Assembly (NCBI GenBank): GCA_021781455.1
Contig: JAJXWV010000070.1
Location: 1-63,619 of the forward strand
Reading direction: 5' to 3'
Length of the DNA: 63,619 bases
Origin: Acidobacteriota bacterium
Lineage (GTDB): Bacteria > Acidobacteriota > Thermoanaerobaculia > Gp7-AA8
This document shows, in pieces, positions 37,357 through 38,130 of this stretch. A program made the translations under genes and the position numbers. Each line of letters opens with the position of its first letter. Positions within the stretch are counted from its first letter, which is position 1. The notes under the pieces were generated by a model, which was not told where the DNA came from, searched no databases, and saw only the letters and a list, made by a program, of their open reading frames with translations.

Positions 37357-37386
37357 GACGCTCTCCCGGATCGATTGATTGCATCT

Positions 37387-38130
37387 ATGATCGCACGCGT
37401 GGCGACGGTCGACGAGCTTCCGTTTTCTCTGCGTCTTTTCTACCGCGCTTATCGCTGGCGGCGGATCGATCCCGTTCCATGGACGCCGATGAGCAAACCC
37501 TTGCGCGAGGCGAGGCTCGTCCTCGTGTCGACCGCCGGAATGGTCGCGCCGGACCAGACCGAGTTCGACCAATCCTTTCGCGGCGGTGACTACTCGTTCC
37601 GCGAGATCGGCGATGACGCGGTGGTCTCAACCTTGATCGAGTCGCACCGCAGCGAAGCCTTCGACCACGAGGGCATCCGTTCGGATCCGAACCTTGGCTT
37701 TCCTCTCGACCGCCTTCACGAGCTGGCCCGCGAAAGCGAGATCGGCTCGCTCAACCACCGCCATCTGTCCTTCATGGGCTCCATCACCGCTCCTGGACGC
37801 CTCGCCGCTCAGACCGCGCCGGCAGCGGCGCAGCTCCTGGTCGATGACCGCGTCGATGCCGCGCTTCTCGTGCCCGTCTGACCGATGTGTAATCAGACGG
37901 TCGGTCTGATCGCCGCCGAGCTGGAGCGCCGCGGAATCTCCACAGTCTGCATCGAGCTCCTGCGCGAGGTCGCCGAGCGCGTGCGCCCTCCCCGCTCGCT
38001 CGTCGTTCCTTTTCCTCACGGTTATCCCCTCGGCAAGCCGGACGATCCCGCGCTGCAGCGATCTGTGATCCGGGCGGCGCTGGCGCTGCTGGAGCGCGAG
38101 GGACCGCCCCCGCTGATCGTCGATTTGTAG
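37387..38130 (+). CDS. Probable selenoprotein, GrdB-like (Sec encoded by TGA at 37879)
   Basis: 247 residues if TGA 37879-37881 is read as selenocysteine. Upstream half: LVLVSTAGMVAPDQTEFDQ, YSFREIG, ESHRSEAFDHEGI, FPLDRLHELA, HLSFMGSITAPGRL and DAALLVPV. The frame continues past TGA with no other stop as U-PMCNQTVGLIAAELERRGIS... LVVPFPHGYPLG...DPALQRSVIRAAL. This whole layout is that of the small glycine/sarcosine/betaine-reductase selenoprotein-B-like family, in which the VPVxPxC site carries Cys or Sec; here it would be a U-P-M-C redox motif. A SECIS-like hairpin follows the TGA. Routine calling would split it into a 165-residue and an 82-residue ORF. Enzymatic role unknown; selA/selB/selC are not in the window. 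Confidence 0.82.
37892..37910 (+). promoter_or_regulatory. Candidate bacterial SECIS element
   Basis: A perfect 7-bp stem, ATCAGAC (37892-37898) and GTCTGAT (37904-37910), closes a 5-nt loop, GGTCG. The loop begins 18 nt after the TGA, within the 16-37 nt known for bacterial SECIS hairpins, and starts with GGU, the bases SelB recognises in the apical loop. The stem lies inside codons of the conserved CNQTVGLI segment. Confidence 0.75.

Follow-up and report, generated by a model that had tools for sequence, protein, structure and literature searches.

A PrdB-like gene with a conserved in-frame TGA and a covarying downstream hairpin is predicted to encode a selenoprotein in an Acidobacteriota bacterium

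We analysed a 63,619-nt contig of an Acidobacteriota bacterium (hereafter, the window), in which a forward-strand frame coding for a PrdB-like protein is open throughout except for a single in-frame TGA (Table 1). The original prediction described the two ORFs on either side of this codon as halves of one protein that share a frame and are separated by the TGA and one further codon, and the coordinates agree with that description, the first ATG of the 3′ half lying at 37885. Homologs start to match no more than a few residues from the ATG at 37387, which supports this codon as the start; an alternative TTG start is located at 37375. When the TGA is read as selenocysteine (Sec, U), the residues around the site are ALLVPV-U-PMC-NQTVGL, and the TGA takes the U position of the UxxC motif of the GrdB/PrdB family, placing the junction of the two ORFs at the redox site of the family, as had been proposed. 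Cys168 is likely the resolving Cys of this motif.

Table 1 Features of the PrdB-like locus (positions in the window)
Feature	Position	Strand	Details
PrdB-like gene, predicted selenoprotein	37387..38130	+	ATG 37387, stop TAG 38128-38130; 247 aa, predicted Sec = residue 165
In-frame TGA, predicted Sec codon	37879..37881	+	First position of UxxC (U-P-M-C)
Cys168 codon TGT	37888..37890	+	Column invariant in the 29-sequence alignment
Bacterial SECIS-type hairpin	37889..37913	+	Core stem 37892-37898 / 37904-37910, two weaker outer pairs

The translated frame matched the D-proline reductase PrdB model TIGR04483 over residues 31–236 (E 1.1e-34, 119.9 bits) without reaching its equivalog cut-off of 300 bits, and scored 43.8 bits with PF07355 (GRDB), above the Pfam gathering cut-off of 22. 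The gene had originally been called GrdB-like, which is right as to the GrdB/PrdB family (PF07355, TIGR04483), but its closest relative is PrdB rather than GrdB proper, the GrdB profile scoring only 45.5 bits. Like PrdB, the product is ~26 kDa in size, shows near full-length homology and carries UxxC; unlike PrdB, it falls far under the equivalog cut-off and comes from a genome in which no PF09338 partner was found. With GrdB (TIGR01917/PF07355) the homology covers the C-terminal half: GrdB proteins are ~430–440 aa long and contain UxxCxxC, whereas the window protein corresponds to the C-terminal half alone and contains UxxC (UPMCNQT, with Thr at the third Cys). Alignment with a GrdB of the same phylum whose Sec is encoded by TGA (locus L081) placed the two Sec residues in one column and Cys168 in that of the Cys that follows. 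The L081 gene (G181:C1:10920-15228, motif UATCSRC) lies between two PF09338 subunit genes, and such loci are rare, PF09338 being present in 1 of the 297 sampled genomes of the phylum. A paralog in the host genome itself (L070, G000:C43:113888-114529) belongs to the same family and is 35% identical to the window protein over ~216 residues, but has no TGA and carries CPETC (CxxxC) in place of UPMC; several genomes from the host's taxonomic family also carry this stop-free CPETC form (L044, L045 and L046).

The best family match to PrdB and the alignment of Sec with the GrdB Sec would both be expected if the gene, while coding for a selenoprotein, specified a true component of a D-proline (or glycine, betaine or sarcosine) reductase. 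We regard this alternative as improbable. No match to the PF09338 partner subunit was found in the host genome G000 with the same model that detected two copies in G181, the positive control, which makes an amino-acid reductase component unlikely. GrdA was likewise unmatched in the genome in a search that had no positive control, the flanking genes examined hold no PF09338- or GrdA-type partner, and the third Cys of UxxCxxC is missing. Because the score is so far under the PrdB cut-off and the genome contains no PF09338 partner family, the window protein, judged by its sequence, is probably PrdB-like but not a D-proline reductase. Gene neighbourhoods of 18 loci revealed no conserved neighbour except at three related Desulfobacterota loci (L054, L055 and L062), which share a ~410-aa gene after it and, before it on the other strand, genes that resemble a transporter set; neither arrangement was seen at the window locus.

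Downstream of the TGA, the claimed perfect 7-bp stem with a GGTCG loop is present at 37892-37910 (stem strands ATCAGAC and GTCTGAT, loop 37899-37903). The bSECISearch model of bacterial SECIS elements reportedly places the loop ~16–37 nt from the TGA, with a G within the first two loop bases. In the window the hairpin lies directly 3′ of the TGA, its loop begins 18 nt past this codon, and a G is found among the first two loop bases. Folding of the nucleotides after the TGA, which had been suggested as a check, gave no support, the energy of the 47 nt that follow this codon being indistinguishable from that of dinucleotide shuffles (z −0.02). A stem as good arose in 1.3% of random synonymous recodings of the same peptide, and the hairpin taken from the window sequence by itself is thus weakly significant. 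Rfam at gathering scores detected three tRNAs in the window and nothing else.

The hairpin becomes convincing because it is conserved with compensatory changes in relatives. A G was found among the first two loop bases in all 41 loci compared, and the seven pairs of the core stem were all formed in 36 of these, six being formed in four loci and five in one. Across 40 distinct sequences, 95.8% of the cells in the whole 9-pair structure were paired, 46 cells were changed on both sides, and compensatory changes affected 5 of the 9 pairs, as in columns 19/27, where A-U, G-C and U-A pairs alternate among the sequences. The covariation score of 0.407 compared with 0.179 in shuffles, none of the 500 shuffles reaching the observed value, and sliding the partners by 1–3 columns reduced the paired cells to 23–38%. 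The register kept in nearly all 41 loci, together with these compensatory changes, bears out the view that the position and loop bases are those of a bacterial SECIS.

The TGA itself is conserved. Homologs were found in 27 of 61 near genomes (the host included), the closest matches each containing exactly one TGA, and in 16 further loci, mostly from Desulfobacterales, other Deltaproteobacteria, Verrucomicrobia and Pyrinomonadaceae. An alignment of 41 TGA-bearing sequences from several phyla put the first TGA of every sequence in one and the same column. Alignment of U with Cys, another proposed check, showed the TGA in line with the Sec of a GrdB whose gene also has TGA there, and with a Cys (CSLC) in the distant homolog L050. 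Comparison with a 68%-identical homolog gave a dN/dS of 0.26 before the TGA (dN 0.29, dS 1.13) and 0.17 after it (dN 0.18, dS 1.06), with most differences at third codon positions on both sides. The lower ratio after the TGA and the third-position differences therefore indicate that the 3′ half is translated and constrained. A sequence from a Verrucomicrobia MAG (L061:1425-2159), with TGA at both the U and C positions of the motif, was considered as a UxxU variant and rejected; since it also contains a later TAA, it is probably a damaged or mis-assembled copy. In one genus of the host's class, each genome carries two Sec paralogs of this family, one with UPVC and one with UPNC (L035/L051, L040/L052 and L038/L053), whose C-terminal extensions are longer than that of the window gene.

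The host genome (4.88 Mb, estimated 100% complete) contains all four Sec genes that the original prediction proposed to look for: selA (472.6 bits), selB (370.4 bits), selD (355.1 bits) and a 94-nt tRNA-Sec with anticodon TCA (71 bits). The selD gene of this genome also carries an in-frame TGA, within GGUACKLGQ (L018:1501-2439, equivalent to G000:C30:12837-13775). TGA-bearing family members are common in the phylum, occurring in 52 of the 297 sampled genomes, and 50 of these 52 possess selA, compared with about 191-192 selA genomes in the whole set (odds ratio 18 for TGA-bearing versus other genomes, Fisher p 7e-9, kinship among the 297 genomes being ignored). The two TGA-bearing genomes without selA, G156 (750 contigs) and G263 (77% complete), are weak exceptions to this link. 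Stop-free homologs alone were found in 30 genomes of the phylum, three of which were without selA.

Taken together, the open frame, the conserved TGA, the covarying hairpin, the full Sec machinery and the purifying selection after the TGA argue for one intact gene whose TGA is predicted to be read as Sec, a reading to which we assign a probability of about 0.96; Sec insertion at residue 165 is what we infer from these sequence comparisons. Decoding of the TGA as some other amino acid, through a genome-wide code change or near-cognate suppression, would also account for a frame that runs on past the codon. This is very improbable, as the neighbouring genes in the window terminate normally under table 11, TGA is the terminal stop of many homologs, the TCA anticodon belongs to a tRNA-Sec in this genome, a distant homolog has Cys and classical GrdB has Sec at this site, and such decoding leaves the hairpin without explanation. 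A pseudogene or sequencing error, in which a Cys codon mutated to TGA in a dead or misassembled gene, fits the lone in-frame stop within an intact frame, the pattern of a recent nonsense mutation, and has a parallel in the apparently damaged L061 (two TGA and one TAA), but is scarcely credible given a TGA shared by dozens of homologs, some of only ~33% identity, the covarying hairpin, a purifying selection 3′ of the TGA at least equal to that on the 5′ side, and the complete Sec machinery. As the original prediction had argued, mutation alone accounts for neither the hairpin nor the conserved 3′ half, and neither of the signs that it named as pointing to a pseudogene (a genome devoid of sel genes, or relatives with the TGA elsewhere or with frameshifts) was observed.

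An AlphaFold2 model built with 29 family members (mean pLDDT 94) predicts a common Rossmann-like α/β arrangement, in which residue 165 is located between a strand (158–162) and a helix (166–181). A sequence search of solved structures gave a chance match only, Foldseek returned no match at E ≤ 0.001, and VIA-align produced generic Rossmann-type rows, the top Z of 9.8 belonging to LacI-type sugar-binding domains. Because these searches yielded only chance or generic matches, we draw no functional claim from the fold.

For the predicted selenoprotein, attack by Sec followed by the action of a resolving Cys is the established chemistry of UxxC selenoenzymes, from which we derive the proposed mechanism. 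SelB would bind the hairpin 11–29 nt downstream of the UGA and bring Sec-tRNA, so that the ribosome would decode the UGA as Sec. The product would be a 27-kDa Rossmann-like α/β protein, in which Sec165 would end a β strand, precede a helix and pair with Cys168 of UPMC. Most likely, the Sec selenolate would attack an oxidised or electrophilic substrate; Cys168 would then release Sec as a selenenylsulfide, which a cellular thiol system would reduce, and the enzyme would probably act without an amino-acid-reductase partner subunit. Both the redox cycle and the existence of such a substrate are suggested by analogy.

The description of the gene as a probable new selenoprotein is supported as to the selenoprotein, and only the gene is new, the family having been described in 2005 (PMC1088965, PMC2398784). 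PrdB/UxxC was the third most frequent known selenoprotein family in the 2005 Sargasso Sea survey, with 42 genes (PMC1088965), and was among the main selenoprotein families in the 2008 GOS survey, with 235 genes assigned to pfam07355 (PMC2398784); two reviews give D-proline reductase as UxxC (PMC9312934, PMC13188914). The marine-metagenome proteins share with the window protein the Pfam family, a UxxC motif with Sec in the first position and a wide distribution in free-living bacteria, and their placement in the same subfamily follows from family and motif rather than from sequence alignment; the window gene differs in coming from an assembled genome. It is therefore an additional member of a family known since 2005. 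We found no paper on PrdB-like selenoproteins in soil or related lineages.

If every TGA were taken as a stop, annotation would yield two fragments at this locus or declare the gene broken, whereas the correct reading adds one selenoprotein to this genome. We lean towards the window protein being a stand-alone Sec/Cys redox enzyme. The broader proposal, that the short PrdB-like selenoproteins, rather than being amino-acid reductases, form a family of stand-alone Sec enzymes with a new reaction, is in our view evenly poised. If true, it would mean that a stand-alone Sec family without a partner subunit exists in several phyla, and that its members may, for example, cleave a C–heteroatom bond reductively or reduce an oxidised metabolite.
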